The translations under genes were made by a program, and so were the position numbers. From Ornithinibacillus caprae (lineage in GTDB: Bacteria; Bacillota; Bacilli; Bacillales; Amphibacillaceae): a DNA stretch of 64,000 nt. Below, one piece after another: positions 14,258 through 62,765 of this stretch (positions are counted from its first letter, which is position 1; each line of letters starts with the position of its first letter). The notes under the pieces were generated by a model. It was given only the letters and a program-made list of their open reading frames with translations, did no database searches and was not told the origin of the DNA. The stretch is taken from positions 1 to 64,000 of the forward strand of contig NZ_WOCA01000004.1 in NCBI RefSeq assembly GCF_009728145.1, written 5' to 3'.

Positions 14258-14320
14258 CATTAGAAAACTTGTATTTTGCCACGTCTTTATGGAGATATCC
14301 TTAGTTACACTTTTGTAAAT
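14258..14320 (-). repeat. two-hairpin intergenic repeat, copy 1 (stem I only)
   Basis: Starts with TTAGAAAACTTG, has the conserved loop block GTCTTTA and ends CCTTAGTTACAC. The arms pair as CCA/TGG with weaker outer pairs. The second hairpin is decayed. Member of the dispersed family described in the findings. Confidence 0.6.
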
Positions 14321-14404
14321 ACCAAGAAAATGACGCCCAAAGACGAATGATTTAGGATCTGGAAATAGTTTTTTAATAACATAAGATGCTATTTGTAAGT
14401 CTAG

Positions 14405-14606
14405 TGATTAGAGCGGAGGGCAGTCGACTCCTGCGGAAACAGCACGTGTCTGAAGACCCCGCAGCAACGGTTTTTCCGTTAGGAGGCTGTAGCCGTGCCC
14501 ACGGCAAAATAGACACTGTGATAGTGACTGAAAGGAGCTTAAACAGATGTCACCCTTGTGCTGGGTGTATTTTCCGGGGATAAAGCACCAACCGTCATTT
14601 CCGGTT
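14405..14606. repeat. GC-rich structured intergenic element
   Basis: About 200 bp with higher GC than its surroundings and several short perfect stems: CTGCGG (14431-14436)/CCGCAG (14459-14464), AACGG/CCGTT (14466-14480), CACCC/GGGTG (14551-14567) and AACCG/CGGTT (14590-14606). The opening GGCAGTCGACTCCTGCGG resembles a dispersed element I recall from other Bacillaceae genomes (recollection, not checked). No credible coding frame. It fills most of the 520-bp gap between yabS and spoIIE. Confidence 0.55.
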
Positions 14607-14661
14607 ACTTCAGATTCTATTAAAATTAGCAACAAAGCTTACGGAAATATTCCAAAAGGAA

Positions 14662-14683
14662 ATCCGAACTAGTTAGTTCGGAT
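14662..14683 (-). terminator. spoIIE terminator
   Basis: Perfect 9-bp stem ATCCGAACT/AGTTCGGAT with AGTT loop, followed on the minus strand by TTCCTTTT, 53 bp after the spoIIE stop. Confidence 0.75.
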
Positions 14684-14736
14684 CTCCAATTGATTAATAT
14701 ACTTTTTTCTCAGCTTCAACTATAATAGTTTATCAA

Positions 14737-17187
14737 TTATTGAGCTTTCCCCTCATAGATTGGGACAGATGCCCATTCTGGAGTATTCTTCTTCACTTTT
14801 GCCACAAGAACTGTCATATCATCCTCAATTACACCTGAACGCGTACGAACTACTTCTTCTAACAATAGATCGGCAATTTCTTGAGGATCATCCGTTTCCA
14901 TTTCACGTATCTTTCGCTTAAGCCAAACATCTGTATTCTCTACATGCTTTGGACCATCAAAAATACCATCACTCATCATGATTAATAGATCCTCTGACAT
15001 TAATTGCTCACTGACAATATCGACATCAAATTCTTGAATTATACCCATTGGTAAATTGCTAGCCTCTATCTTAATCATCTCATCACCACGCTTTACAAAA
15101 CTTGGTGTGGAGCCAATTTTCAAAAACCGAACGAATGCATTGTGTAAATTAATTACTGCGAGATCTAATGTTGCAAACATTTCATCTGTTGTACGTAGTG
15201 CTAAGATAGAATTAATAGATTTAATAGCGACTTTTTCTGGTATTCCAGTTTGAAGAATTTGTTGGAGTAAACGCAATGTCTCACCACTTTCTTCATTCGC
15301 CCTAGCACCATTTCCCATTCCATCACTAATCGCCATAGCATATTTCCCTGCTCCCAATTCTATCATTGTATAACTATCACCTGATACGATCCCACCACCT
15401 TTAGCGGCATGAGAAACACCAGTTTCCACAGCAAATTCCTTGGCAGACCCAAATTGTAAAAAGGAATAGCCATTTGGAAATGGTGAAATTTCTTCATGTT
15501 TTAAAATAATATTTTCATTTAATATATCTGATAGTACTGGGGCAATTAATTTTTCCCCTTCTCCTCGGTACTCATAAAAAGATACAGCCATTTCAATATC
15601 GACATTTCCTTTTTCTAGTTGATATACATCTAGCTTCTCTAATTCCATTCCCATTGATTTTAGTGCATGAACAATTTGAATTTCTTGTTTTTCATGATGC
15701 TCACGTTCCTTAAGTATTTCTTTCGCGAAATCTTCCATTACATCAGAAACCCCTTGAAGTTGTTCAGCTACTAAGCGCTTACTTTCTAGAACCTGCTTTT
15801 TCAGTTTACGATTTGCATCAAAATAAGACATCTCTTCTTTCATAACATCCATTACTCTTTTGGATTTAACACAATGATTTTCAAATTCACGAATAACTTT
15901 TCGATTTGGTTCACGACCATCCATATATTCATCTTTCATTTCTTCCATTAATGAGTACGTTGTATCGAATTGCTGTTGCCAGCAACGTTCCTTCATAAAA
16001 CATGTTTGACATGTTTTTTCTGTTACTTGGCTTAGAAAATAGTCGGTCTCTCGCTGATCTTCACTTTCATCTTCTGAAAAATTCTCTGCACTATTAAAGC
16101 TTTTAGATAATGCAGCGAACACATCTGAAAACTGTTCTACACGTTTAGCAGTAACATTTCTTACTTTTTGCAAATATTGCTCCTGTTCATTGGTATGTTC
16201 TTCTGTACCTGGAATATATCTTGAGATTTTTTTAAACCAACTTGCCGGTGTTATGAAAAATAGAAATATCGCGGCTAACGATTCCATAAAAGAAGGAATG
16301 ATAGCTCCAGAGTCACCATATATTCCAACTAAGAAAGTCCCAACTAATAATCCTGTTGCTACCCCAATTTTCTTTCCTTCTTTTAATAGTCCTCCTAGTA
16401 AACCGGAAAATGCTAATAAACTCATTTGGTAAAGACTAGCTACATTTGCTAAGGACAATATTAATCCTGCAACCACACCAACCGTTGATCCAATAGCTGC
16501 TCCACCAACAAAAGCAAGAACTAATACAAAATAACGTGAGAATACTTGTTCAATAGATGCACCATATAGCTCCCATCCTACTGTTCCAGTTAGTATCGAA
16601 GCGATCAATATAATCATACATACAATTTCTTCATTTTTAAGTGAAGGTTTGTACCTTTTTGGTGATAATAACGGTACACTTTGCATAAAGATTAATACTA
16701 GGATCGTTCCTAACACTCCCTCAACAAGTAAAAGCATCCATTCATAGGATGATAGTTGTCCATAAAGAGAATATAAAAATAACCTAGGAGCTACCGTTGA
16801 TATAAATACAAATAGTGGAACTTTAATCTGCTGATGTTTTGTATTTTTAAAGATACCCGCTAATAAAATAAATAAAAACATGGCAATACCAATAAAAATA
16901 CTATGCTCCATGGAATATGTAATGGCTCCAATTAGCATTGCCAGCATAGCCCTTGGTGCATGGCTTTTTTGGATAAACCAAAGAGTTGCTAAAAATGCTA
17001 CTGCAAATGGAGATACGACTGATAGAATGACTGCTCGTCCTAATAAAAATCCGACAAATACAAACAGCCACCCCTTATCAAGTAATATTGATTTGATCCG
17101 TGTATAAATACCTCTCCGAAATTTTTCCAGGTTGGTTTGTTCTACATCTAAGGCTTTCGTTTCCATACTTGGAATTGAATCCATCAT
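14737..17187 (-). CDS. spoIIE: stage II sporulation protein E, PP2C phosphatase
   Basis: Dephosphorylates SpoIIAA to free sigma-F in the forespore and takes part in polar septation. The first 330 residues hold about ten hydrophobic segments, followed by a linker with a C-x2-C-type patch (TCQTCFMKERCW) and a PP2C domain from about residue 590 (GDSYTMIELGAGKYAMAISD, then MMSDGIFDG). 816 aa, the usual size. The start has a GGGAGTGG site and two adjacent ATGs; I take the first. It is single-gene, with a Spo0A-type promoter and its own terminator. Confidence 0.96.
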   Translation of the reverse strand: MMDSIPSMETKALDVEQTNLEKFRRGIYTRIKSILLDKGWLFVFVGFLLGRAVILSVVSPFAVAFLATLWFIQKSHAPRAMLAMLIGAITYSMEHSIFIGIAMFLFILLAGIFKNTKHQQIKVPLFVFISTVAPRLFLYSLYGQLSSYEWMLLLVEGVLGTILVLIFMQSVPLLSPKRYKPSLKNEEIVCMIILIASILTGTVGWELYGASIEQVFSRYFVLVLAFVGGAAIGSTVGVVAGLILSLANVASLYQMSLLAFSGLLGGLLKEGKKIGVATGLLVGTFLVGIYGDSGAIIPSFMESLAAIFLFFITPASWFKKISRYIPGTEEHTNEQEQYLQKVRNVTAKRVEQFSDVFAALSKSFNSAENFSEDESEDQRETDYFLSQVTEKTCQTCFMKERCWQQQFDTTYSLMEEMKDEYMDGREPNRKVIREFENHCVKSKRVMDVMKEEMSYFDANRKLKKQVLESKRLVAEQLQGVSDVMEDFAKEILKEREHHEKQEIQIVHALKSMGMELEKLDVYQLEKGNVDIEMAVSFYEYRGEGEKLIAPVLSDILNENIILKHEEISPFPNGYSFLQFGSAKEFAVETGVSHAAKGGGIVSGDSYTMIELGAGKYAMAISDGMGNGARANEESGETLRLLQQILQTGIPEKVAIKSINSILALRTTDEMFATLDLAVINLHNAFVRFLKIGSTPSFVKRGDEMIKIEASNLPMGIIQEFDVDIVSEQLMSEDLLIMMSDGIFDGPKHVENTDVWLKRKIREMETDDPQEIADLLLEEVVRTRSGVIEDDMTVLVAKVKKNTPEWASVPIYEGKAQ

Positions 17188-17214
17188 ATCTCAACCACTC
17201 CCTCTTAGAAGCAT

Positions 17215-17280
17215 ATTAAACCATAAGATGCTTTCTGATTTTGTCAAAACAAGAGAGCAAATCCAAAAAATCGTTCGACT
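17215..17280 (-). promoter_or_regulatory. spoIIE promoter with long spacer and Spo0A box
   Basis: Perfect -35 TTGACA (17242-17247) and -10 TTTAAT (17215-17220) are separated by 21 bp, the unusual spacing known for the Spo0A-activated spoIIE promoter of B. subtilis. A near-consensus 0A box AGTCGAA (17274-17280; consensus TGTCGAA) lies about 26 bp upstream of the -35. Confidence 0.75.
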
Positions 17281-17316
17281 AGTTTCTAGGCGTACCTACA
17301 AAAAGCTAGAAACCTA

Positions 17317-17781
17317 TCATAGAAAGAAAAAACGTTTTATAGACTGTATTGTTGAGGCATGCAAACCTTCATGGAAAATTGTGCGAACCAATACTTGTTC
17401 AACTGTATGCATGTCCATTTCAGTAGGTTCAAAAACTTCCTCTAGGCGTTCTCCATATACCTCTTTAATACGGAGAGGTTGCTCCCTTAGTAGCTTTTTT
17501 AGTTCCTCTAAATCTGGAGTTTCTTCTGAAAAATTACCGGGATTCGTTCCAAACCCAAACCAATCATTAAATTTGTCGTTATACGTCATTTTTTCCTTTG
17601 TTACTGCCTGTATCCACAAATATTGATCTAAATAAATATGTCCTAAATTCCAACGAATGTTATTGTTGAAACCATTGGGAATAATATTTGCTTGCTGTTC
17701 TGTAATGCCATCTATTAGTGATAATGTTTCTTGTCGATATGTATGTAGTTGCGTAAAAAGAACTTCATGTCTTTTTTTCAT
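17317..17781 (-). CDS. DinB-like metal-binding four-helix protein
   Basis: A 154-aa protein of the DinB/YfiT type. The presumed metal histidines are in NLGHIYLDQ (about residue 47) and FHEGLHAST (about 135-143). DinB-fold proteins are often thiol-dependent transferases or damage-induced proteins; the reaction here is unknown. It lies between spoIIE and tRNA-Met, where B. subtilis has only tRNA genes, so it is probably an insertion in this lineage. An imperfect hairpin (GTTTCTAG/CTAGAAAC, 17282-17312) follows the stop. Confidence 0.8.
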   Translation of the reverse strand: MKKRHEVLFTQLHTYRQETLSLIDGITEQQANIIPNGFNNNIRWNLGHIYLDQYLWIQAVTKEKMTYNDKFNDWFGFGTNPGNFSEETPDLEELKKLLREQPLRIKEVYGERLEEVFEPTEMDMHTVEQVLVRTIFHEGLHASTIQSIKRFFFL

Positions 17782-17864
17782 GATTCCACTCCTCTAATTT
17801 TGAATACTTACATATTCTCCACCATTATTAAAAATCCTTTATTTTGTCGAAAGAAAAAAATCTA

Positions 17865-17893
17865 TTGACACAATTCGAATACTCCTGTAATAT
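17865..17893 (+). promoter_or_regulatory. tRNA-Met promoter
   Basis: Perfect -35 TTGACA (17865-17870), 17-bp spacer, -10 TAATAT (17888-17893), 20 bp before the tRNA. Confidence 0.85.
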
Positions 17894-17913
17894 ATTTTTT
17901 GTTGGCTTTATAC

Positions 17914-17987
17914 GGCGGTGTAGCTCAGCTGGCGAGAGCGTACGGTTCATACCCGTGAGGTCGGGGGTTCGATCCCCTCCGCCGCCA
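17914..17987 (+). tRNA. tRNA-Met (CAU), elongator type
   Basis: Full cloverleaf: acceptor GGCGGTG/CGCCGCC with one U-G pair, D-stem GCTC/GAGC, anticodon loop TTCATAC, T-loop TTCGATC, discriminator A. The CCA end is not encoded. The acceptor starts with G-C pairs, unlike initiator tRNA, and the sequence matches what I know of elongator tRNA-Met at this locus in B. subtilis. There a tRNA-Glu follows; here a terminator follows instead. Confidence 0.95.
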
Positions 17988-17997
17988 TTGAAAAAAT

Positions 17998-18029
17998 AAA
18001 ACCTGTTCTCTTTTGAGAGCAGGTTTTTT
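17998..18029 (+). terminator. tRNA-Met terminator
   Basis: ACCTGTTCTC (18001-18010) pairs with GAGAGCAGGT (18015-18024) with one G-U pair, followed by a T run. Confidence 0.85.
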
Positions 18030-18112
18030 GTTAATAGGTAAATTGTTCATACTGTACATAAATCTAGCTTCTAGTATTTAACAGAATGAGGATCCATATA
18101 AGAAATAACCCA

Positions 18113-18154
18113 TAAAAGAGCAGGTACCAATCCAATTTGGTACCTGCTCTTTTA
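18113..18154 (-). terminator. yabR terminator
   Basis: Perfect 18-bp stem, TAAAAGAGCAGGTACCAA (18113-18130) with its complement at 18137-18154. A/T ends make it potentially bidirectional; it lies downstream of yabR. Confidence 0.85.
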
Positions 18155-18244
18155 TCATTTTGCACCGGATAGTAACCGATGTTTATCCGTCATTGACTTT
18201 ACTTATATTTAAAATTATAGAGCATTCTCTATAGACAGCAACTG

Positions 18245-18628
18245 CTATCCTCTTTTAGCACCTCGACCCCCGCGTCTGGATTCCGTGTGCTTCTTTAAAG
18301 AGGCTAAACGGTCTTCAGAATCTTTTAGAAAACGATTCATTTTCGCTTCGAATGATTCCGTACGTTCTCTTGAATTTTTTTGGCGTACCGGCTTATCTTT
18401 CGCTTTTTTAATAGATAAACCTATTTTACCATCCTTTTCAACATTAATAACTTTTACCTTGACTTCATCACCTACAGATAAATGTTCATTAATGTCTTTG
18501 ACATAGTTGTCGGCAACCTCACTAATATGGACAAGGCCAGTAGTTCCTTCTCCTAGTTCAACAAAAGCACCAAAATTAGTGATACCAGTTACCTTTCCCT
18601 GCAGCTTGCTGCCTACTTCGATTGACAT
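18245..18628 (-). CDS. yabR: S1-domain RNA-binding protein (YabR)
   Basis: Residues 1-75 are a single S1 RNA-binding domain (GSKLQGKVTGITNFGAFVEL, LVHISEVADNYV, VKVINVEKDGKIGLSIKKA). The tail is basic and ends RRGGRGAKRG, which suggests nucleic-acid contact. The ribosome site is AAGGAGGAG. It is the last gene of the divIC cluster and of the general-stress/S1 family GSP13/YabR; its physiological partner is unknown. Confidence 0.9.
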   Translation of the reverse strand: MSIEVGSKLQGKVTGITNFGAFVELGEGTTGLVHISEVADNYVKDINEHLSVGDEVKVKVINVEKDGKIGLSIKKAKDKPVRQKNSRERTESFEAKMNRFLKDSEDRLASLKKHTESRRGGRGAKRG

Positions 18629-18701
18629 AAAAAAAATGCTCCTCCTTAAGATTTTAAAATATACTTACCATATATATTATAGCTAAGCTTGTAAAAGTGT
18701 G

Positions 18702-19082
18702 TCAATAAGACGGGTCTTCCTCAGGAATTTTAAAAATTAATTCCCCTTCTTTAGATAAAAAATAATTCGTACGAGCTATATCCAAAATATATTCTTCATC
18801 GTTTAACAACTGAATTTCTTCTTCGTATTCTTCTTCAGCTGCTTTTAACTTTGCAAGCTGCTCTTCTAGTTCTTGATATTCTTCCAATTTTTCAGCATGT
18901 AACGATCGTTGTTTAACATGATAGGTTGTCATTGTTCCAATAGCAAGAGCTACTATGGCCGAAAAAAGCACAAGACGGCGAATTAAACGTTTTTTCTTTC
19001 GTTTTTGTCGCTCTATGTAAGCATCGTATTTCTGCATATAGTTCGAATCTAGTCTTGCTACTGTTTTTTTCTTTTCAGACAT
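18702..19082 (-). CDS. divIC: cell division protein DivIC
   Basis: Bitopic division protein of the FtsL/DivIC/FtsB group, a divisome partner of DivIB and FtsL. A basic N-terminus (KRKKKRLIRR) precedes one membrane segment (about residues 38-56) and an extracytoplasmic coiled coil (LEEYQELEEQLAKLKAAEEE). 126 aa. It follows yabQ by 4 bp. Confidence 0.93.
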   Translation of the reverse strand: MSEKKKTVARLDSNYMQKYDAYIERQKRKKKRLIRRLVLFSAIVALAIGTMTTYHVKQRSLHAEKLEEYQELEEQLAKLKAAEEEYEEEIQLLNDEEYILDIARTNYFLSKEGELIFKIPEEDPSY

Positions 19083-19086
19083 AGCA

Positions 19087-19686
19087 TTACCTCCTCTTTT
19101 GTGCGATATACTTGATCCATTTAATACATATATTCTTTATTTTACTATAAAATCCTGCTAGATTGTGAAAAAATAAATGGATTTTTTTAGGCAGCATTCT
19201 GTATATCACACGCAAAACCCATTTTATTGGAGTAAAGAGGACGTAAAAAATGTATTTAATTATCATAAATAATATATTACCAATGAACAATACACTGGTT
19301 ATTAATGCCTGGAACAAAAACTGAATTGGTTTAATTATAACAACTGTAACAACTCTAGCTAAAAATTGATAGATGTCGGCAATTATGATTATTAAGCGTT
19401 CTAGTATACGTTTGTATATGTTCGCAGCTACTACTTGATAAATAGAAAAACCAAGTAAGCAAGCTACAAACACATACACCCTCAATTCACCAGAGTTAAC
19501 CCGAAATAAAATATAGTATAGAATAAATGTTTGAGTTAACCAAAAGCTTATTTCCATGACATAAGCTAAAATGGTATGTTTTTTCCAATGCCTCGCAAAT
19601 CGTCGGAATGTTTCTAGTGCTATACCTAAATAAAAACCACCTAATACCATTGCGATCATTGTCAAGAATTGAACGTTTAACGTCAT
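19087..19686 (-). CDS. yabQ: spore cortex membrane protein YabQ
   Basis: Hydrophobic protein with several membrane segments (about residues 5-25, 40-60, 68-88, 100-150) and a basic tail. YabQ is needed for spore cortex formation in B. subtilis and acts in the mother-cell-derived outer membrane. Its ATG overlaps the yabP TGA as ATGA, so the two are coupled. 199 aa. Confidence 0.9.
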   Translation of the reverse strand: MTLNVQFLTMIAMVLGGFYLGIALETFRRFARHWKKHTILAYVMEISFWLTQTFILYYILFRVNSGELRVYVFVACLLGFSIYQVVAANIYKRILERLIIIIADIYQFLARVVTVVIIKPIQFLFQALITSVLFIGNILFMIIKYIFYVLFTPIKWVLRVIYRMLPKKIHLFFHNLAGFYSKIKNICIKWIKYIAQKRR

Positions 19687-19988: not shown

Positions 19989-20044
19989 ACGCGCTTCCTC
20001 CCTTATCATTAATACCTTATGAAAGGAAGGACAAGTATAGAACT

Positions 20045-27200: not shown

Positions 27201-27828
27201 TTTCTTCATCAAATAATTCGATACGAATTGGATTTTCTTCTGTAACAGGATATATATCTATAATTCCACCCCGACGACTAAACTCACCTGGAGTTGTTAC
27301 CATCGAAGCACGCTCATACCCCATATCCACTAAGGACGATAAATAGCTTTCCATATTAATTTCTTCACCAACTGAGAAATCAAGTTGGTATTTTTCAAGA
27401 TAGCTTGTAGGGGGCAAAATTCGTTTTAATGCTGCAACTGGAGCAATTAAAATACCCGACTTCTTATTGGTCCACTCCGTTAAGGCTTCAATTCGCTGAC
27501 TTCTTAACTCTGGACTTGAAATTGCAATTTCAGAAGCTATTAACTCATTAACAGGATATAAATGAACATGTTCATCGCCCATAAATGCAGCTAGGTCATC
27601 ATATAATGCCTGTGCCTGAACTAATTGAAATGTAACGAGAAGGACTGGCTTATTTGTTGACTCTTCTATTAATGATACTAATAGGCTTCTAGCTGAACCG
27701 GATAAACCAGCGACTAACTGCTCTTTCATTCCATTTGAAATCCCTGTAAGAATGGATTGGATGTCTTCCTTTGATTGTAAATATCTATTAATACCTTTCA
27801 CAAACATAACCCCCATAATATTGGCCAT
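24283..27828 (-). CDS. mfd: transcription-repair coupling factor
   Basis: Removes RNA polymerase stalled at lesions and recruits UvrA. Domains in order: UvrB-like N-terminal region (about 25-330), CarD-like RNA polymerase interaction domain (VGDYVVHANHGIGRYLG, about 505), RecG-like translocase with Walker A CGDVGYGKTEV and DEEQRFG, helicase C domain, and the TRCF C-terminal domain. 1,181 aa. The start is uncertain: ATG 27828 has an AGGGG site 4 nt away, while a GTG nine codons later has GGGGG with 8-nt spacing. Confidence 0.96.
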   Translation of the reverse strand: MANIMGVMFVKGINRYLQSKEDIQSILTGISNGMKEQLVAGLSGSARSLLVSLIEESTNKPVLLVTFQLVQAQALYDDLAAFMGDEHVHLYPVNELIASEIAISSPELRSQRIEALTEWTNKKSGILIAPVAALKRILPPTSYLEKYQLDFSVGEEINMESYLSSLVDMGYERASMVTTPGEFSRRGGIIDIYPVTEENPIRIELFDEEIDSIRYFDAETQRSLDKKESIVIGPATELLLKDGDILSGAERLESALANTLKTKKSTEAKEMLVEEIEHDISRLRNLEHFPEMYKYIGFLYDNPASLLDYLPSNGLIILDEMSRIQETATNLDMEEAEWYSSLLESNKTVKNSKFSFDWHTIWDKMDAQRLYMSVFLRHIPNTQPQNIINLSSRAMQEFHGQMHLFKNELSRWDKGGYSVVVLAPNEKRAEKIQSIFTDYDIESSVTNQLELPVEHPTIAVGNVSSGIEMPMHRLVLITENELFKKRSKRTRKKQKISNAERIKNYQELKVGDYVVHANHGIGRYLGIETLEVNDKHKDYMLLKYSGDDKLFVPIEQIDLVQKFVGSEGKEPKLYKLGGSEWTKVKRKVQSSVEDIADDLIKLYAERESRKGYAFSPDTDLQREFDASFPYQETEDQLRCIAEIKEDMEKEQPMDRLLCGDVGYGKTEVAIRAAFKAVADGKQVAILVPTTILAQQHYETIRERFQDHAINIGLLSRFRTAKQQKETIQGLKRGLVDVVVGTHRLLSKDIEYHELGLLIVDEEQRFGVKHKEKIKQMKTNIDVLTLTATPIPRTLHMSMLGVRDLSVIETPPENRFPIQTYVAEYNPILIRESIEREMSRGGQVFFLYNRVENIDKMARDIGMLVEDARIAVAHGQMNETELENVMFGFLEGEYDVLVSTTIIETGVDIPNVNTLIVYDADRMGLSQLYQLRGRVGRSNRVAYAYFTYQKDKVLTEVAEKRLQAIKEFTELGSGFKIAMRDLSIRGAGNLLGAQQHGFIDSVGFDMYNQMLKDAIDARKAGKEIEEIKPFEPELALSIDAYIPDTYISDEKQKIDMYKQFQTILAQEDIDDLKDELIDRFGDYPEEVENLFIVSNLKRVSKNERVESITERNKKIEMLLTEERSQQIDGAKLFELANEFGRGIQLGTESNKLKIIYKPSRDTEHQRYEILGNFIEKLEKVNR

Positions 27829-27848
27829 ATGACCCCTAACCTAATACA

Positions 27849-27891
27849 CATATGCAGCATAAGAAAACTTATACCTTCTTATCTGCTAAAA
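27849..27891. repeat. two-hairpin repeat, copy 2 (stem II only)
   Basis: CATATGCAGCATAAGAAAAC and CTTCTTATCTGCTAAAAA: the GCAG-ATAAGAA/TTCTTAT-CTGC hairpin of the dispersed family, between mfd and fin. Confidence 0.7.
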
Positions 27892-27986
27892 ACTATAACT
27901 GACTTACATAATAAAGCCATAAAATGATTAAACAATACAGCTGGTAAAAATTCTTTAGCAATGTACCTTTTACACGTAATAAACGC

Positions 27987-28375: not shown

Positions 28376-28939
28376 TTACGCATTAAATTCATTCATTACT
28401 TCTAAGAAAGGCTTTTCTAACCATTTTTCACATGCATCTGCAGCTCTTTCGATGCTATCTGTTACTATTTCTTGTTCCGATTTTGGAAATGAACTAAGAA
28501 CATAGTCTACGACTGGTACGGGAGAGGTTGGTCTGCCAACTCCGATACGAATCCGTTTAAACTCTTTCGTACCCAAATGGTCTATTACAGAACGGATCCC
28601 ATTATGTCCTCCATGCCCACCTTTTTGTCGTAGGCGTATCTTTCCAGTTGGTAAATCTAGTTCATCATAAATAACTAAAACATTCTCTGGTTCGATGTCA
28701 TAAAAATCTATCAAAGGACGTAACGATTGCCCCGAAAGATTCATATACGTTTGTGGTTGTAGCAGAACTACTTTCTCTCCTTGATAGTGTTCTACGATAT
28801 GTTTTCCGTTAAACTTATCTTTCTTTAAAGGTCCCCATTTATGGCGATCAAGCAATTCATCGATCACCATAAATCCAATATTATGTCTAGTTTTTTTATA
28901 TTTTCTGCCAGGATTACCTAGACCAACAATACACTTCAT
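28376..28939 (-). CDS. pth: peptidyl-tRNA hydrolase
   Basis: Releases peptides from prematurely dissociated peptidyl-tRNA. Family signatures: [20 protein letters not shown] with the catalytic His, [25 protein letters not shown] and [12 protein letters not shown]. 187 aa, complete. In B. subtilis the gene is also called spoVC. It sits between ctc and fin. Confidence 0.96.
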
Positions 28940-29003
28940 CGTTATTCCCTCGTTTATTATTAAAAGTTAGAAAATTCGTCTTTATCCAAGAATTCATTAC
29001 AAC

Positions 29004-29042
29004 TATGCAGCATAAGTAAGCTTATTCTTTTCTGCTAAAAAA
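29004..29042. repeat. two-hairpin repeat, copy 3 (stem II only)
   Basis: ATGCAGCATAAGTAAGC followed by TTATTCTTTTCTGCTAAAA, a diverged stem II between ctc and pth. Confidence 0.6.
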
Positions 29043-32365: not shown

Positions 32366-32412
32366 CAGATACAGAAGGGATGGAGGTATCCAAATACGAA
32401 TTATTTTTTTAT

Positions 32413-32508
32413 TAGAAACCTTAGCATTCAACAAGCCTTTAAGGTGAATGCCTTAGTTGCACTAATGCAGGATAGGAAAGTTTCTACTTTTCTTATTTTC
32501 TTATCTGG
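32413..32508. repeat. two-hairpin repeat, copy 4 (full)
   Basis: TTAGAAACCTTAGCATTCA, loop block GCCTTTA, TGAATGCCTTAGTTGCAC, then ATGCAGGATAGGAAAG and TTTTCTTATCTGG. Stem I arms GCATTCA/TGAATGC differ from other copies but pair perfectly. Between glmU and spoVG. Confidence 0.7.
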
Positions 32509-33192: not shown

Positions 33193-33271
33193 TTTTTATA
33201 CTTTCTTATTTCTTTAGAAAACGTGGCATTCACACCATGCCTTTATGGTGTGTGGCCTATCTGCCTAAAAA
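33193..33271. repeat. two-hairpin repeat, copy 5 (rearranged)
   Basis: The 3' part of stem II (ATACTTTCTTATTT) precedes TTAGAAAACGTGGCATTCA, then loop GCCTTTA and ATGGTGTGTGGCC joined directly to TATCTGCCTAAAAA. The left stem II arm between is lost. Stem I pairs ACACCAT/ATGGTGT. Confidence 0.6.
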
Positions 33272-33302
33272 AATAAAATCTTTTTCAATCGAAAAAGATT
33301 TT
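33266..33302 (-). terminator. purR-ispE terminator
   Basis: AAAATCTTTTT (33275-33285) with AAAAAGATTTT (33292-33302), followed on the minus strand by ATTTTTTT. Confidence 0.8.
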
Positions 33303-39105: not shown

Positions 39106-39213
39106 CACATATACACAGTATGAAGTTATATACTAAAAAAACTTGGCTTTGTTATGGCATTAGTCTTCGTTTCTTTTATGCAGCATAAGAATATATTCTT
39201 TTTTACTAAAAAA
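39106..39213. repeat. two-hairpin repeat, copy 6 (degenerate, nearly tandem)
   Basis: CACATATACACAGTATGAAG and ATATACTAAAAA look like a decayed stem II; they are followed by ACTTGGCTTTGTTATGGC and ATGCAGCATAAG, a second partial copy. Between yabE and rnmV. Confidence 0.5.
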
Positions 39214-48852: not shown

Positions 48853-49282
<430 letters not shown>

Positions 49283-49306
<24 letters not shown>

Positions 49307-49921
49307 GTCAAGAATCTTCGTAAGGCTTTCTTGTTCCACCTTCTCGATTGTTTGATCTGCAGCAATTACTTGTATACGATTGGGAAATCGATCCACTAGT
49401 TGGTGATAGGCTGAATAAACATCCTCATGAAAGCGCAAATTCTCTAAATCTAAACGATTTCTTTCTCTATCTTTATTCGCTGTAATACGATCTAATCCCT
49501 TTTTTGGTTCAATATCAAAAAATAAAGTTAAATCTGGCATCGCATCCACAATAGCAAATTGATTAATTGCAAACACTTCATCCATCCCTAATCCTCTTGC
49601 ATATCCTTGATAAGCTAAGCTACTATCAATAAATCGATCACATAAAATAACTTTCCCAGCTTGTAATGCCGGTAGAACCTTTTCAACTAAATGCTGTCTT
49701 CGAGCTGCTGCATACAGTAATGCTTCTGTTCTTGCATCCATTTCTGTATGATTAGGGTTTAGAATAATACCTCTTATTTCTTCAGCGATATGAATTCCAC
49801 CTGGTTCTCTAGTTGAAACTACATCATATCCTTGTTCTTGAAGCTTTTTTTCTATGGAACGGAGTACAGAAGTTTTTCCTGCTCCTTCACCGCCCTCAAA
49901 TGTAATAAAATAACCACTCAC
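49283..49921 (-). CDS. tmk: thymidylate kinase
   Basis: Phosphorylates dTMP. P-loop [18 protein letters not shown] in [20 protein letters not shown], and the lid region with VSTREPGG upstream. 212 aa. Its last seven codons (FLADKKV and stop) are read from repeat copy 7, so the C-terminal end is repeat-derived. It sits between yaaO and darA. Confidence 0.95.
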
Positions 49922-51361: not shown

Positions 51362-51405
51362 ACTAGCTTCCCTTTCAAACTATATTTACTCTATCTTAAT
51401 GACAC

Positions 51406-51450
51406 TACTTGGCTTTTCGCAAGCTTTTTATAACGAATGTCTTCCTTTCG
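51406..51450. repeat. two-hairpin repeat, copy 8 (fragment)
   Basis: ACTTGGCTTTTCGCAAGC followed by TTTTTATAACGAATGTCTTC resembles a decayed stem I. Confidence 0.35.
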
Positions 51451-51460
51451 TATAAAACAA

Positions 51461-51492
51461 AAAAGGCCCTTGCAAGTAATTTGCAAGACCTT
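51461..51492 (-). terminator. csfB terminator
   Basis: AAGGCCCTTGCAA with TTGCAAGACCTT, one bulge and one mismatch, followed on the minus strand by TTTTTTG. Confidence 0.75.
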
Positions 51493-55532: not shown

Positions 55533-55556
55533 AAATAAGATACCAGGTGATAAATA

Positions 55557-56056: not shown

Positions 56057-56066
56057 AATATAATAA

Positions 56067-56094: not shown

Positions 56095-56105
56095 CTTATT
56101 ATCTA

Positions 56106-56380
56106 TGTATGCCGTGCACCCACCTTCGATGTAACGACCCTATGCGTTACTTAAGTTCATGGCTCAGCCTAGGTAACCCCGCGGCACACAGAAATGACCA
56201 CTTACTGCTGCTTCCTTCCGGACCTGACAGGATTCATGGGTTTCTGTTGCGCAGGACCTAAGCGTCAACACCACTCCCTTAAGGCAGACCATAAAGTCGT
56301 CCACCTCGAGTGGGAATTCAGCCTCGCTACAGCGGATTGCGAGTACAGGGCACCGCTACCTCCCCGCCTAGCACGGTAAT
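56106..56380 (-). ncRNA. scr: signal recognition particle RNA (large, scRNA type)
   Basis: About 275 nt on the minus strand, beginning ACCGTGCTAGGCGGGGAGGT and ending near GGGTGCACGGC, so the ends pair. Domain IV is clear: TCAGGTCCGGAAGGAAGCAG with the GGAA tetraloop. The Alu-type 5' domain (GGTAGCGGTGCCCTGTACTC) is present as in B. subtilis scRNA. It scaffolds Ffh for co-translational targeting. Conserved between tadA and dnaX. Confidence 0.95.
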
Positions 56381-56384
56381 TTCC

Positions 56385-56412
56385 ATTATAACACTTTTAG
56401 GTGAAATTGCAA
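56385..56412 (-). promoter_or_regulatory. SRP RNA promoter
   Basis: Minus-strand TTGCAA (56407-56412), 16 bp, perfect TATAAT (56385-56390). Confidence 0.7.
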
Positions 56413-56458
56413 TGGGGTATAGATGAGAGTATATGGAAATAACGGATAACAATGTTAG

Positions 56459-56962
<504 letters not shown>

Positions 56963-57010
56963 TTACGTAAATAATAGTATGTTATAACCTAATTATTAAA
57001 GGAGTATAAC

Positions 57011-57404
57011 ATGGATCATTCATTGATAAATACTGCTATCCTTTTTATAGATATAATAAATGATTTTAATTTTCATGGTGGAGACAAATTACTGTCCCAT
57101 ACAGAAAAGATTTTACCAAATTTAATTAAACTCAAACATTTTGGGGAGAAAAATAATATCCCCATTATTTATGTCAATGACCATTATCAGTTATAGACTT
57201 CAGATCCTAGCAAAATAATTAATTATTGCAGAAATGAAAAAAGTGAAAAAATCATTAACGCTTTACAGCCTAATAATGACGATTATTTCTTCATTAAACC
57301 ACAGCACTCTGCCTTTTTTCAAACCCCATTAAAATCATTATTAAATGATTTAGGAAAGACAAACTTAATAATAGCAAGTATAGCGGGAGATATCTGTGTT
57401 TTAT
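57011..57404 (+). pseudogene. isochorismatase-family hydrolase, 5' half, interrupted
   Basis: Translation starts MDHSLINTAILFIDIINDFN, the isochorismatase-family start, and stops at TAG (57194-57196) where a tryptophan-like position is expected. The frame continues after it (TSDPSKIINYCRNE, FFIKPQHSAFFQTPLKSLL, LIIASIAGDICVL) with catalytic-type Asp, Lys and Cys in place. It then breaks at 57404, where a tnpB element begins; the 3' half resumes at 58240. Confidence 0.8.
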
Positions 57405-58239
57405 CTAAAACAGACGAGAAAACCCCCATCTTCAATGGTCTTGTACGTTTTGCTAAAAGTCGTGAAGTAGAAGGTCGGATCATGAATGCAACCATTAGAC
57501 GTAATCCCTCGGGTAAATATCACATTTCAATTTTGGCTGAAACCGAAGTTAAACCACTTAGGAAGACAGATTCATCTGTGGGAATCGATGTAGGGTTAAA
57601 AAACTTTGCTACTCTTTCAGATGGAACAGTCTATTCAAACCCTAAATTTTTTCGAACACTAGAAAAAAAATTAGCAAAAGCTCAACGCATACTATCAAGG
57701 AGAGAAATTAGTTCTTCTAATTGGCATAAACAAAAAAAGTCGCTCGTATCCATGAGAAAATTGCCAATTCTAGAAAAGATATGTTGGACAAAATCTCTAC
57801 CGGGATTGTCAAAAACCACGACGTCATCGGAATAGAAGATTTGTCAATAAAAAATATGTTAAAAAACCATAATCTTGCAAAAGCAATTAGTGAAGTATCC
57901 TGGTCACAATTCAGAACGATGCTAGAATATAAAGCAAGATGGTACGGAAAACAAGTCGTTACCGTAGCCAAAAACTTTGCTTCAAGTCAGATATGTTCCA
58001 ATTGTGGACATAAGCACAAAGACGTTAAAAATCTTGCTTTGCGTGAATGGACTTGTCAACGTGCAACAGTCATCACCAAAGAGATATTAACGCAAGTATC
58101 AATCTTCGTAAATGAAGCATTACGATTAACCGCAGGGACTGCGGGGATAGCCTAATCCATATCTGACCTATAGGTTAGTGTTCTTAGGAATCCCCCACTT
58201 CAATCGAACCGTAAAGTCGATAAGTGATGGGTAGTTCAA
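57405..58239 (+). mobile_element. decayed tnpB-only (IS1341/IS605-type) element
   Basis: 835 bp inserted in the isochorismatase gene after TTTTAT without target duplication, as IS200/IS605 elements do. The left end has CCCCCATCTTCAATGG and the right end CCCCCACTTCAATCG, related sequences. The right end can fold (CCACTT/AAGTGATGG region). No tnpA is present. The region 58100-58239 would hold the scaffold of the guide-like RNA in an intact element. Confidence 0.75.
57415..58155 (+). pseudogene. tnpB: TnpB nuclease remnant
   Basis: About 250 codons of a TnpB of normally about 370. The N-terminal third is missing. RuvC-I Asp (VGIDVGLKNFATLSDG) and RuvC-II Glu ([12 protein letters not shown]) remain. 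One frameshift lies in an A run near 57732-57738, and two more near 58055 and 58113. In the restored frame the zinc ribbon (CSNCGHKH ... TC) is followed by HHQRDINAS, so the RuvC-III position normally HDRD is altered. It cannot make an active protein. Confidence 0.85.
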
Positions 58240-58356
58240 TTACGGCAAAGGATGCATATCCCAAAAAACTGCATGGCTTCTGAAGAATTGGAAGGCAATG
58301 ACTATGCACTTTATCTGATGCACTCGGTTATGAAAACTAGAATTGACTCTATTTAA
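58240..58356 (+). pseudogene. isochorismatase-family hydrolase, 3' half
   Basis: Resumes with TTACGGCAAAGGATGCATAT (T-A-K-D-A-Y, compare FTANDAY of the family). After a small deletion and frame change it reads IPKNCMASEELEGNDYALYL to a stop at 58354-58356. Joined to the half ending at 57404 it rebuilds a continuous reading across the insertion point. Confidence 0.75.
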
Positions 58357-58403
58357 GACATATCACAAGCACTCCATTCATAAAGTGTGAATAGGATAGG
58401 ATA

Positions 58404-58495
58404 TTAGAAAACTTAGCTGTTTCTAAGTCTTTATAGCAACAGCCTTAGTTACCTTTGCAGTATAAGAAAGCTATACTTTCTTAACTGCCAATAAG
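58404..58495. repeat. two-hairpin repeat, copy 9 (full)
   Basis: TTAGAAAACTTAGCTGTT, GTCTTTA, AACAGCCTTAGTTAC, GCAGTATAAGAAAG and CTTTCTTAACTGC. Stem I GCTGTT/AACAGC differs from copy 7 on both arms yet pairs. Directly upstream of yaaH. Confidence 0.8.
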
Positions 58496-58529
58496 ACTGT
58501 GTATACACACACTTAAGGAGGGAATCTTT

Positions 58530-59822
58530 TTGCAAATTCATGTTGTAAGTAGTGGAGACTCATTGTATTCGATTGCCAATACATATGGCAATTCGATAAA
58601 TGCATTAGTTGATGCAAATGAATTAGAGGCACCGGACAATCTAGTTGTAGGGCAAGCATTGGTTATCCCTATAGTTGGTGAGTTCTATTTCGTCCAACCA
58701 GGGGATAGTTTATATTCCATTGGACAGCGGTTTGGAATTTCTTATCAAGAGTTAGCTCAAATCAATAATATTCCTGTTGATGGGACCTTACCTGTTGGAT
58801 TAAGATTATATATTCCTCCCCGTCCAAAACAAGAAATTATATCTAACGCGTATGTAGAACCCACTGGTGAAACTGTTACACCAACATTAGAAAACGCAGC
58901 AAGAAAAGCAGCACCCTATCTATCTTACCTCGCTCCATTTAGTTATGAAATCAATCGCGATGGAACATTAAACCCACCACCATTAAACAACTTCGCTCAA
59001 ATAGCTAGTGCCAATAATGCATCTCTTATGCTAGTAGTAACCAATTTAGAAGAAGGGGAATTCAGTGCTGATCTTGGCCACATTATTGTCACTGTTCAAT
59101 CCGTACAAAATACATTATTAGATAACATCGTAAACACGGCTCATCAAGTTGGATTCACCGATGTGCATTTTGACTTCGAATTTCTACCACCAGAAGACAG
59201 GGAAGCATATAATACATTTTTAAGAAAAGCGAAAGATCGCCTATCACAGGAAGGATTGTTAATGTCTACCGCTCTTGCCCCAAAAATAAGTGCTGAACAA
59301 GAGGGGGAATGGTATGAAGCCCATGATTATGGGGCCCATGGAGAAATAGTTGATTTTGTCGTACTCATGACATATGAATGGGGCTATAGTGGTGGTCCTG
59401 CCATGGCCGTATCACCAATTGACCAAGTAAGAAGAGTTGTTGATTATGCATTGACAGAAATGCCTGCTGATAAAATATTACTCGGTCAGAATCTATATGG
59501 CTATGACTGGACATTACCTTATGAACCTGGTGGGGAATATGCACAAGCATTAAGCCCTCAGCAAGCCATTGCCTTAGCACGTGAGAATAATGTACCAATT
59601 CAATTTGATACAACTGCACAGGCACCATTTTTTACTTATACTGATCCAGAAGGTAATGAGCATGAAGTTTGGTTTGAAGATGCTCGGTCCATTCAAGCAA
59701 AATTCGATATGATTAAGGAATTAGGGTTAAGAGGAATAAGCTATTGGAAGTTAGGTTTAGCTTTCCCACAAAATTGGCAATTACTTCGAGACAACTTTAC
59801 AATTACGAAACCAGGAAGTTAG
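58530..59822 (+). CDS. yaaH: spore cortex N-acetylglucosaminidase, YaaH/SleL type
   Basis: Two LysM domains (residues 1-48 and 52-95: VVSSGDSLYSIANTYG and FVQPGDSLYSIGQRFG) and a GH18 domain (about 110-425) with the catalytic Glu in HFDFEFLPPEDR and the YW motif SYWKLGLAFPQN. It cleaves cortex fragments in germination or helps build the coat. TTG start with AAGGAGGG 7 nt upstream. 430 aa, no signal peptide, as in the family. Confidence 0.94.
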   Translation: MQIHVVSSGDSLYSIANTYGNSINALVDANELEAPDNLVVGQALVIPIVGEFYFVQPGDSLYSIGQRFGISYQELAQINNIPVDGTLPVGLRLYIPPRPKQEIISNAYVEPTGETVTPTLENAARKAAPYLSYLAPFSYEINRDGTLNPPPLNNFAQIASANNASLMLVVTNLEEGEFSADLGHIIVTVQSVQNTLLDNIVNTAHQVGFTDVHFDFEFLPPEDREAYNTFLRKAKDRLSQEGLLMSTALAPKISAEQEGEWYEAHDYGAHGEIVDFVVLMTYEWGYSGGPAMAVSPIDQVRRVVDYALTEMPADKILLGQNLYGYDWTLPYEPGGEYAQALSPQQAIALARENNVPIQFDTTAQAPFFTYTDPEGNEHEVWFEDARSIQAKFDMIKELGLRGISYWKLGLAFPQNWQLLRDNFTITKPGS

Positions 59823-59859
59823 AATAAAAAGGTTTGGAAAAAACTTATTCTTTCTAAAA

Positions 59860-59895
59860 AACCGTTGCCCCTCTTATAAGGGCAACGGTTCTTTT
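59860..59895. terminator. bidirectional terminator between yaaH and acsA
   Basis: AACCGTTGCCC (59860-59870) with GGGCAACGGTT (59880-59890), followed by CTTTTT and preceded by AAAAA; convergent genes on both sides. Confidence 0.85.
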
Positions 59896-59900
59896 TAAGG

Positions 59901-61616
59901 TTATTTTTCTAATGTTGATGTATCACCAGTTGGTAATCCTAACTCCCAAGATTTTAATAAACGGCGCATAATTTTACCACTACGTGTCTTTGGTATTGAT
60001 TCTTTTACTTCTATTTCACGAGGTGCAGCATGTGCACTTAATCCAGTCTTAACAAATTGGCGGATGTCCTCTAGTAATTCTGGAGAATCTTCATACCCAG
60101 CATTTAACGTAATAAATGCCTTGATAATTTCACCACGCTCAGGATGCGGTTTTCCTATAACACCTGCTTCAGCAACTGCTGGGTGTTCAATTAGTTTACT
60201 TTCAACTTCAAATGGTCCAACACGCTCTCCAGATGTATTAATAACATCATCTAAACGACCTTGGAACCAGAAGTAACCATCCTCATCACGATACGCGCTA
60301 TCACCTGATACATACCATCCATTTACAAAATAACTTTCATATTTACTTGGATTGTTCCAAATAGCTCGCATCATAGACGGCCATCCTGCTTTAATAGCTA
60401 AATTCCCCATTTGATTTGGAGGTATTTCATTTCCTTCGTTATCAACAATAGACGCTTCAATACCAGGAATTGGTTTTCCCATTGACCCTGGTCTAATTTC
60501 TTCAGAAGGAATATTTACGATTAACTGTGCACCAGTCTCTGTCATCCACCATGTATCATGTATGCGAAGATCAAATGCTCTTAATCCCCACGTAATTACT
60601 TCTGGATTTAACGGTTCTCCAACACTTAAAATATGTCTTAATATAGATAAGTCATGTTTTTTCACAAGTTCTTCCCCGGCACTTACTAGCATACGTAGTG
60701 CGGTTGGAGCTGTATACCAGACAGTTACTTTTTCACGTTCCAATGTTTGATACCAATCTTCTGGTGTAAAACGACCTCCACGAATGACATTCGTTACTCC
60801 ATGCAGCCATGGCGCAAAAATACCGTAACTTGTTCCAGTTACCCAACCAGGGTCAGCTGTACACCAATAAACATCATCTTCTTTTAAATCTAAAACCCAT
60901 TCAGCAGTAGCATAGTGCTGAATCATAGCATTATGAACATGATAAACTCCTTTTGGCTTACCAGTAGAACCAGATGTATAGTGGAGTAGCATTCCATCCT
61001 CTAAATCTACCCACTCTATATCAAAGTCAGTAGAGGCTTCTTTCATTTCAGAAAAATAATCAATATATTTATCGGATGTTTCATTATGATCGCCAACTAA
61101 AACGATCTTTTCAAGATCTGGTAAATCCTCCTGAGGAACTCTTCCTAATAATTCAGGTGTAGTAATAAGCATCTTGGCTTCACTATCCTGCAAGCGATCT
61201 CGTACAGCTTGCTCCATAAATGCCTCAAATAACGGCCCTGCAATTGCACCAATCTTTAAGATACCAAAAAAGCTAGCGTAAAACTCTGGGCTTCTTGGCA
61301 TAAATAAAAAGATACGATCTCCTTTTTCAACATTATGTTTCTTTAATACATTCGCAAATTGATTACTTTGATGGCTAAGCTCTTCAAACGTTACCTTTTC
61401 TTCCCGGTCCGGTGCTGAGTATAATAGAGCTACTTTATCCTTTTTAGTTGGATCTTGAGCATGGCGATCAAGTGCTTCATAAGCAATATTGACTTTACCA
61501 GTTTCATTCCAAGAAAAATTCTTTTTTACTTCTTCCCATGAAAAAGTCTCACGCATTTTTTCATAGTTTTGTAGATTATGATTACCTTCTCTTGCTGGTA
61601 TACGTTGCATATCCAT
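59901..61616 (-). CDS. acsA: acetyl-CoA synthetase
   Basis: Activates acetate to acetyl-CoA through acetyl-AMP. ATP loop LLHYTSGSTGKPKGVYH, the substrate region DTWWMTETGAQLI, hinge GRLDDVINTSGERV and the acetylatable lysine PKTRSGKIMRRLLK. 571 aa, the Bacillus AcsA size. A perfect cre site just upstream predicts CcpA repression during growth on glucose. acuABC, next to acsA in B. subtilis, is not here. Confidence 0.93.
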   Translation of the reverse strand: MDMQRIPAREGNHNLQNYEKMRETFSWEEVKKNFSWNETGKVNIAYEALDRHAQDPTKKDKVALLYSAPDREEKVTFEELSHQSNQFANVLKKHNVEKGDRIFLFMPRSPEFYASFFGILKIGAIAGPLFEAFMEQAVRDRLQDSEAKMLITTPELLGRVPQEDLPDLEKIVLVGDHNETSDKYIDYFSEMKEASTDFDIEWVDLEDGMLLHYTSGSTGKPKGVYHVHNAMIQHYATAEWVLDLKEDDVYWCTADPGWVTGTSYGIFAPWLHGVTNVIRGGRFTPEDWYQTLEREKVTVWYTAPTALRMLVSAGEELVKKHDLSILRHILSVGEPLNPEVITWGLRAFDLRIHDTWWMTETGAQLIVNIPSEEIRPGSMGKPIPGIEASIVDNEGNEIPPNQMGNLAIKAGWPSMMRAIWNNPSKYESYFVNGWYVSGDSAYRDEDGYFWFQGRLDDVINTSGERVGPFEVESKLIEHPAVAEAGVIGKPHPERGEIIKAFITLNAGYEDSPELLEDIRQFVKTGLSAHAAPREIEVKESIPKTRSGKIMRRLLKSWELGLPTGDTSTLEK

Positions 61617-61639
61617 CCTATCACCTCATCTGTAAAATT

Positions 61640-61653
61640 TGGAACCGATTACA
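61640..61653 (-). promoter_or_regulatory. cre site (CcpA operator) of acsA
   Basis: Minus-strand TGTAATCGGTTCCA matches the cre consensus TGnAAnCGnWnnCW at every fixed position, 24 bp before the start codon. Confidence 0.8.
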
Positions 61654-61774
61654 TTTGGTATTTTAAGAAATAATTAAATTATTTGGTAATTTTTATTTTA
61701 GAACATTCTATGACATTTTTAAAGCATTTAATACGAATTGAAAGAATTTTTATTAAATGCTCTAAGAAATTTTT

Positions 61775-61869
61775 CTTGGCAGATAGAAAATTACAAACTT
61801 CCCTTTCCTGATTAGTGTAACTAATGCATTCACCATAAAGGCATGGCATGCCTTAGTTTTCTAACACTT
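61775..61869 (-). repeat. two-hairpin repeat, copy 10 (inverted orientation)
   Basis: On the minus strand: TTAGAAAACTAAGGCAT, GCCTTTATGGTGAATGC, ATTAGTTACACTAAT, CAGGAAAGGG and TTTTCTATCTGCC. The only clear copy in this orientation. Between acsA and the YqcI-family gene; the gap shows no gene. Confidence 0.65.
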
Positions 61870-61880
61870 CCAATGTTCTA

Positions 61881-62522
61881 TTAATCACGCTGAAATGGAC
61901 ATTCAGATAATGATGTATAGTCATCTCGTAAAAAATACTGCTTCCACTCAAAGTTATCTTCATTTCCGTAGCTATTTAAATGTGGGTGTATGGAGGCGGA
62001 ATCATAATTGGATAATCTTTTTCTTACCATGTTTTTTATTTTTATAGCGTGAGGATTTGTTTTATAAAATTCACGGAATACCCATCTTGGAGTAATTGCA
62101 AGCATCATTGTCTCATATTGCCTGCTTTTGCGATGCTTATGGGCTGGAGTAGCACAATAGATAAAATACCTTTCACCCTCAAAACAAAATTCCCACATAT
62201 GATGATGAGCATCTATTGGAATATCAGACGGCCATTCTATTCGGTCAATAGCAGCTAATCCATTTAATTGTTCCCAAAACAGTTGTTCAAATTGCTTTAC
62301 AGAATAGGTTGTCTTCACTTCTTCTGGAAGTTGATAAAAAACAACAAGGGATGTGTATTTTCCAAATTCTCTCGAGGATTTTGTGAAATCTCTTAATAAC
62401 TCGGAAAGCTCAAAAATCGTAGAACGCTCCCTTGGGTCCCCAACAAAACCATAACGAAACTGATTCAACGAGAACCCTATTGTAGCAGGTATGCATGGAA
62501 ATAGATCCTTTTTATCGGTCAT
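61881..62522 (-). CDS. YqcI/YcgG family protein
   Basis: 213 aa from the first ATG; PCIPATIGFSLNQFRYGFVG, HHHMWEFCFEGERYFIYC and PHLNSYGNEDNFEWKQYFL are typical of this family of unknown biochemical role. The frame stays open for about 30 more codons upstream (LEQFEKKMTDKKD preceded by a charged stretch) without ATG, GTG or TTG, up to a GAGGTGAT ribosome-site-like sequence near 62613-62620, so the true start may be upstream and unusual. Confidence 0.8.
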   Translation of the reverse strand: MTDKKDLFPCIPATIGFSLNQFRYGFVGDPRERSTIFELSELLRDFTKSSREFGKYTSLVVFYQLPEEVKTTYSVKQFEQLFWEQLNGLAAIDRIEWPSDIPIDAHHHMWEFCFEGERYFIYCATPAHKHRKSRQYETMMLAITPRWVFREFYKTNPHAIKIKNMVRKRLSNYDSASIHPHLNSYGNEDNFEWKQYFLRDDYTSLSECPFQRD

Positions 62523-62689
62523 TTTTTTCTCAAATTGTTCAAGGGTTCTTTTTTCCCTGTGATCGAGTTTGTTTCTATTATCATGCCTAGCACTAAATAA
62601 TCTGTTGATAATATCACCTCACAATAGCTTCTACAATATATTCAGTGAAACAAATATGGGTGAATGTCTAGAAAGGAAGTAAATGTGGT

Positions 62690-62765
62690 AACATAGCTTT
62701 TCCAGTTCTTTCAGTAAAAACTTAGGCACACATACGCAGGTTATACTTCTTAACTACTCAGAATC
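62690..62765. repeat. two-hairpin repeat, copy 11 (degenerate)
   Basis: ATAGCTTTTCCAGTTCTTTC, AAACTTAGGCACACATACGC and TATACTTCTTAACTACTCAG line up with the family in order, with many changes. Confidence 0.45.

Follow-up and report, generated by a model that had tools for sequence, protein, structure and literature searches.

A two-hairpin intergenic repeat of Ornithinibacillus caprae and other Firmicutes that behaves as mobile DNA

The stretch of Ornithinibacillus caprae DNA analysed here (64,000 nucleotides; hereafter the window) carries, besides such ordinary features as a tRNA (17914-17987, plus strand) and the bacterial large SRP RNA (56112-56376, minus strand), multiple copies of a short repeat with two hairpins. 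A separate 29-nt inverted pair, 93% complementary with its arms 29 kb apart (28760-28788 and 57691-57719), lies outside the hairpin family. Eleven copies of the repeat had been listed in a reading made from the sequence alone. When the window was scanned with R1, a covariance model built from 31 copies, nine of the eleven proved clear (E of 0.0012 or better), whereas the two listed at 51406 and 62690 are marginal; moreover, the family is real, but several of the listed positions marked only part of a copy.

The best copy in the window, a member of the TTTT subtype, lies at 49214..49300 on the plus strand (R1 score of 94.4 bits). It possesses a stem I like GGCTTTTGCC/GGCAAAAGCC, the conserved linker and stem II, its predicted RNA fold has a z of -4.4, and its R1 match extends to 49307, into a flanking A-run. 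A minus-strand gene predicted at 49283-49921 has its TAA end inside this copy (49283-49300), and on this gene model the insertion seems to have supplied the stop codon. The plus-strand copy at 58404..58495 (81.7 bits) has a different stem I (GCTGTT/AACAGC) and is absent from the orthologous site of G002, the nearest relative, while the ATTC subtype is represented on the same strand by 32412..32507 (77.7 bits), in which the right arm of stem II appears by eye to be duplicated, with a terminator-like hairpin then following. The minus strand carries the copy at 61772..61864 (55.9 bits). Copies with signs of decay, all on the plus strand, are found at 14260..14329 (49.9 bits; stem II decayed), 39134..39213 (38.7 bits), 28967..29042 (36.0 bits), 27813..27893 (33.7 bits; stem I mostly lost, stem II intact) and 33214..33296 (29.1 bits), the last of which is preceded by TATACTTTCTTATTTCT, possibly, judging by its letters, the right end of another copy. 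The two marginal cases, at 51400..51464 and 62684..62764 (plus strand), reached 14.8 and 14.7 bits with filters off and in local 161-base stretches only, were not among the 13 R1 matches that the window yields at an E threshold of 1, and are at best heavily decayed copies.

The family extends well beyond the window. At least 145 R1 matches were found in the 4.16-Mb genome (E up to 0.1), and the true number may be higher, given that scoring covered 150 candidates. Independently of the model, TTAGAAAACTTGGC with up to one mismatch occurs 83 times, as compared to four for a reversed control, and of the 43 BLAST matches to a consensus in the genome, 40 are long.

The majority consensus reads TTAGAAAACTTGGC-ATTCGCC-AAGCCTTTAT-GGTGAATGCC-TTAGTTGCACTTAT-GCAGGATAGGAAAG-TTTATA-CTTTCCTATCTGC, and in a second subtype stem I carries TTTT/AAAA and stem II GCATAAG. 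The element is ~87 bp long, runs from TTAG to CTG(C), has no gene of its own, and begins mostly with TTAG or AAAG, without a GTAG or CGTC tag. In a near-perfect copy from G063, a genome of another family in the order, either strand is predicted to fold into two hairpins (DNA z about -10), and beneath stem I the conserved flanks contribute a further AACT/AGTT pairing. A stop-free frame crosses 67 of 143 copies on one strand and 35 on the other, which is unsurprising in copies of only ~90 bases; the copies are too short for genes. A short terminal inverted repeat, TTTTAG/CTAAAA, had also been proposed, and this part of the description has to be given up: the bases ahead of TTAG vary, and the right-hand A-run is sequence of the insertion site, since by eye the run is present in G002 at three sites that lack a clear copy (C22:415211, C37:226660 and C35:39134) and differs among near-identical copies of G063.

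Longer forms of the element were also encountered. In Natribacillus halophilus (L166, L184, L189, L213 and L255), a second, non-coding insert occupies the loop of stem II and in most copies starts with TTTTGTATGAAAAC; a similar longer insert in the same loop is found in G063 (L381:5649), and a 19-mer from the start of the insert, with up to two mismatches, was matched in 5 of 14 genomes (part of these matches was inspected). The longer Natribacillus form was considered as an autonomous version of the element and rejected, as it consists of the non-coding insert, behind which the right arm of stem II closes again. A further variant, seen in Oceanobacillus (L190, L200, L227 and L243), carries an inserted GC-rich hairpin (about GGGGCGAGTAACCGGAGCCCC) next to stem II.

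Evidence that the element behaves as mobile DNA comes from several genomes. In G063, which has at least 28 copies, 20 were selected by score for examination, and seven pairs among these are identical or have a single difference over 89 nt. The 40-nt sequences on either side of the paired copies match at just 7-14 of 40 positions in all but one of 14 comparisons, the exception being one 5′ flank pair that is alike at 39 of 40. No nearest-neighbour identity above 95% was seen among the 90 best copies of the O. caprae genome, so that recent movement is demonstrated in G063 only, and the copies here are older. Alignment to G002, over 389 kb of its sequence, succeeded at 13 of the 143 sites, and none of the 13 orthologous gaps contains a clear copy, although R1 finds four clear copies elsewhere in the same 389 kb. 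At the site of the copy at 39134, the G002 gap has the A-run and is overlapped by a doubtful reverse-strand match (19.6 bits, E 0.73). The gap between the neighbouring genes that houses the copy at 49214 is likewise copy-free in 10 of 10 relatives of the genus.

At the clearest G002 site, AATAGCAA and CCAAGTAA adjoin as AATAGCAA/CCAAGTAA, and the same flanks enclose the element here. No target-site duplication is visible at this site or in a nested case from Oceanobacillus halotolerans, where the element interrupts another repeat of which an empty copy, CCCCCGA/CATGC, exists; few junctions are base-exact, given that the G002 flanks are only 66-87% identical. The nested case probably reflects a single event that was later amplified. 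In O. halotolerans (L171, L173, L177, L202 and others), the element sits at one fixed place inside the repeat AGCGCCTTGATCACCCCCGA...CAAGCATAAGCC, and the composite of repeat and element seems itself to have spread. Desulfosporosinus metallidurans, in turn, has tandem arrays with a unit of ~90 bp, in which the next unit starts directly behind the end of the previous one.

These ends bear on a further explanation, namely a classical MITE mobilised by a DDE transposase. Such an origin would account for an element that is short, intergenic, gene-less and high in copy number. Nevertheless, the terminal inverted repeats of classical MITEs, 15-30 bp as given in the part of the source consulted (PMC3733652), have no counterpart here, nor was a target-site duplication seen at the junctions, few of them base-exact, and a classical MITE therefore seems scarcely credible.

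The sites of insertion were studied in 143 distinct copies scoring 36 bits or more, six of them in the window, using our own hexamer-based gene predictions. All but four of the copies (139/143) lie not mostly within a predicted ORF, and the four are in ORFs of 60 codons or fewer. Orientation is strongly biased: 115 copies run opposite to the local gene majority and 28 run with it, and between co-directional genes 80 copies oppose the direction of the genes while 18 follow it. By a heuristic terminator finder, the 3′ flank of 66 of the 143 copies contains an intrinsic terminator on the opposite strand, as compared to 4-5 of the 5′ flanks and to 35 of 400 random intergenic windows, and in 59 of these 66 the T-tract starts no more than 12 nt from the model end; 30 copies have 3′ flanks that are also terminator-like on the same strand. 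More than half of the copies thus lack a recognisable terminator, a figure that is tempered by the same finder's detection of one in only 169 of 398 comparable control stretches (the 88 nt that follow stop codons in copy-free gaps). Counting hairpins of at most -9 kcal/mol in the nearest 30 nt reveals the same asymmetry, with 80 of 143 copies on the 3′ side versus 11 on the 5′ side; the corresponding counts in G063 are 16 of 20 and 2 of 20, and 15 of its 20 copies are terminator-flanked. In other lineages, a terminator was found at 55 of 127 copies, within 12 nt in 50 of them, versus 8-10 of 127 on the 5′ side.

The sequence ahead of the insertion boundary, read along the gene and with the boundary set at the model end minus 7, is a T-run followed mostly by G or A. 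T occupies positions -7 to -2 in 105-135 of the 143 copies, G or A occupies position -1 in 108, and A-runs of four or more (read on the element strand) adjoin 113, counts of T and of A-runs being somewhat inflated by a few flanking columns of R1 that favour A; boundaries in G063, set independently of R1, show the same T-run. A hairpin stands behind the run in 64 of the 113 A-run copies, versus 731 of 5180 T-runs from control gaps, an enrichment of about fourfold. Where the 3′ neighbour is co-directional to the element (37 copies), so that no terminator is expected there, the run persists in 24 and a hairpin in 3, and hence the T-run may be the primary signal. By eye, the G002 site at C37:226660 plainly has the terminator and the A-run, and the element is absent. 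Part of the apparent targeting could also arise if insertions elsewhere were purged, and the four cases informative about replication versus transcription as the source of the orientation bias are split two and two.

Covariation in the stems provides a further view of how the copies arise. In the 31 copies of the model alignment, 22 cells have changed in both partners of a pair with pairing retained, as compared to 7.5 in shuffles (0 of 500 as high); scored by pairs, the count is 8 versus 5.2, with 24 of 500 shuffles reaching 8. An alignment-independent test compared the duplex energy of each copy's own stem arms with that of arms swapped between copies in 500 shuffles, which leave the relatedness between copies in place. 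In this genome, where 75 of the 143 copies have both anchors and 73 of these are unique, own stem I arms give -10.20 versus -7.74 when swapped, with no shuffle as good; across other genomes, the values for 115 unique inner sequences, a few of which are chance pattern matches, are -12.81 and -9.34 kcal/mol (0/500). In a subset of 15 copies whose left arm is the same, own and swapped arms differ little (-14.12 versus -13.22, 1/500), and stem II gives -9.53 versus -8.70 in 61 copies (0/500). The earlier observation that the arms of stem I vary yet remain complementary is thus borne out both within this genome and across genomes.

The sequence-only reading had offered two explanations for this compensatory change, selection for a folded DNA or RNA and spread as hairpins. 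The change itself is real, and the second explanation is favoured. Among the 94 copies nearest to the ATTC type, 73 double changes maintain pairing and 21 break it, with 37.8 doubles expected, while of the single changes 115 break the pair and 74 preserve it. Founding copies would thus covary, and resident copies would then decay largely without constraint. Spread as hairpins is favoured by the tendency of single changes in residents to break pairs, by the orthologous sites of relatives without a clear copy, and by the location of many copies beyond a terminator, where they would be off the normal transcript of the preceding gene.

The same evidence bears on the possibility that the repeat is a cis-acting RNA or DNA module under selection, such as a backup terminator or an mRNA-stability hairpin, that is often gained and lost. 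The position behind genes, the covarying stems and the occurrence of a hairpin followed by TTTTCTAA along the gene would all be in keeping with such a role, as would an alternative hairpin, CTTGGC/GCCAAG, all six pairs of which are formed in 26 of 143 copies as compared to 54 of 2860 shuffles. We nevertheless regard a selected module as improbable, because resident copies have many broken pairs, orthologous sites are copy-free, many copies lie beyond a terminator that already exists, and near-identical copies have unrelated flanks.

The family is patchy yet widespread, occurring in many Bacillus-like and Desulfosporosinus-like bacteria. With stricter filters, R1 matches were obtained in 18 of 41 genomes including its own, the counts being 103 in O. 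caprae, 83 in G024 (another genus), 55 in G001, 16 in G011 and none in G003. A wider model, R2, derived from 105 matches, detected the family in 29 of 150 genomes (its own included) and in 20 of 84 genera within the order. When 84,980 species genomes were scanned with a pattern, at least 115 stretches matched. Among the matches listed, 80 of them titled, the genera are Oceanobacillus, Virgibacillus, Lentibacillus, Natribacillus, Geomicrobium, Ureibacillus, Brevibacillus and Desulfosporosinus, and further hosts are a Bacillus sp., a Paenibacillaceae MAG and a Clostridiales bin. The consensus had no blastn match in plasmids and phages, and three 17-mer matches in viral contigs, whose displayed flanks lack the AGAAAACTTGG motif, are taken as chance.

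Candidate mobilising enzymes were sought in this and related genomes with profiles for the Y1 transposase (PF01797), the group II intron reverse transcriptase (TIGR04416) and IS110 (PF01548). None of the three fits the whole family: Y1 has no match in G024, with its 83 copies; the reverse transcriptase has none in the copy-rich G001 (55), G024 (83) and G046; and IS110 has none in G011 with its 16 R1 matches. Clustering of ORFs beside copies (stop-to-stop, 100 codons or more, within 1.8 kb; 1286 ORFs from 301 places, some repeated through overlapping loci) revealed no recurrent transposase in the 14 largest blastp clusters, the largest of which appears by eye to be ABC ATPase-like. Two intact Y1 genes of O. 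caprae, at G000:C22:272765 (L039) and G000:C22:418682 (L040), are each flanked by palindromes of their own (about GGGACAAGGGACCTGACCCC, and GTGCCTGTCACTTGTCGAAATTCGACAAGTGACAGGCAC), which by our own reading are unrelated to the hairpin element.

An element of the REP or PATE type, belonging to the world of IS200/IS605 and RAYTs and transposed as a single strand by a present or former Y1 (HUH) enzyme, is a possibility to which we give a minority share, and it overlaps with the explanation that we prefer, of which it would be a special case. The lack of terminal inverted repeats and of target-site duplications, the hairpins near both ends and the short target fit the mechanism as set out in the sections consulted of one source (PMC7290912), REP units likewise occur in arrays according to the portion consulted of another (PMC3733652), and Y1 matches were found in 15 of 16 genomes searched as well as in this one. 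Weighing against it are the 33 Y1 loci examined, a subset of all Y1 matches, around which no element was found over distances of up to 1.5 kb, or less where a contig ended; the different palindromes beside the two intact Y1 genes here; G024, rich in copies and without a Y1 match; and the missing GTAG/CGTC tag. Far less probable is a product of RNA-mediated insertion, for instance a remnant or trans-substrate of group IIC introns. Such introns occupy a similar niche at terminators, as the consulted part of PMC4424553 describes, and the lack of a duplication would agree; neither the window nor eight loci examined has an Rfam group II intron match, however, and the reverse transcriptase is missing from G001 and G024 despite their many copies.

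Taken together, these data are best explained by a non-autonomous, terminator-targeted hairpin element of ~87 bp that is moved in trans, an explanation that we consider likely. It would insert in one orientation into T-runs, chiefly the T-tract directly behind the hairpin of an intrinsic terminator, so that the stop codon of the gene would be followed by the terminator hairpin and its T-tract, and these by the element with stem II first, then the linker, stem I and AAGTTTTCTAA. A trans-acting enzyme would recognise the folded strand, whether single-stranded DNA in HUH-type style or RNA, and its target would be the combination of hairpin and T-tract. As the element's own end, the stem I hairpin followed by TTTTCTAA, resembles this target, insertion of one copy behind another could explain the head-to-tail arrays. 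Structure would be maintained among copies able to move, and resident copies would decay afterwards.

A broader and more tentative proposal, which we rate below even chances, is that widespread gene-less mobile hairpins of Firmicutes take the terminator (hairpin plus T-tract) as their target, carry a copy of that target as their own end, and so insert behind genes and behind themselves, with trans-acting machinery that is neither Y1, group II intron nor IS110 and perhaps works on DNA or RNA where transcription ends. It is possible that the mobilisers are extinct. An address just behind terminators would be nearly harmless in a compact genome and would thereby make a high copy number possible. 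Moreover, the copies could serve as natural markers for tracing invasions, and with them insertion directed to terminators could be put to the test in a system other than group IIC introns; a mobiliser would have to be shared, or to have been replaced, across distant Firmicutes.

The remark in the sequence-only reading that the repeat is not a named family agrees with Rfam and, within partial coverage, with the literature. Rfam 15 gave no match on the window copies at the gathering score or on copies in the eight loci at E up to 1, where its two weak matches lie elsewhere than the copies, and our literature search found no description of the two-hairpin repeat, a weak result given that most subscription papers fall outside its coverage. 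Several known systems nevertheless resemble it in part. As far as the consulted portion of PMC3733652 goes, REP/RAYT systems share short intergenic palindromes, high copy number, arrayed units and presumed mobilisation in trans, while the present element differs in its two covarying hairpins over ~87 bp, its TTAG/AAAG start in place of GTAG/CGTC, its insertion at terminator T-tracts and its absence beside the Y1 genes examined. PATE-like elements, which retain only the ends of IS200/IS605, are similar in having hairpins near the ends and no terminal inverted repeat, target-site duplication or transposase (PMC7290912, consulted in part). Compared with what those sections describe, the element differs in having no parent IS that we could find, in its patchy occurrence across Firmicutes, and in its probable target, which would be a hairpin with its T-tract in place of a fixed tetra- or pentanucleotide.

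The architecture of the pneumococcal repeats BOX, RUP and SPRITE is different from that of the element. In the part of PMC10969869 consulted, these repeats of Streptococcus pneumoniae are similarly intergenic, bunch together and insert into one another, and SPRITE is described as terminator-like. Their hosts differ from those of the element as well. The bcr1 repeat of the Bacillus cereus group is another repeat of Bacilli that is described as having the character of a mobile element. Finally, group IIC introns share with the element, about half of whose copies are so placed, an insertion site at intrinsic terminator DNA, and differ, as judged from the consulted part of PMC4424553, in that the element is 87 bp long and has neither a ribozyme match nor an intron protein.
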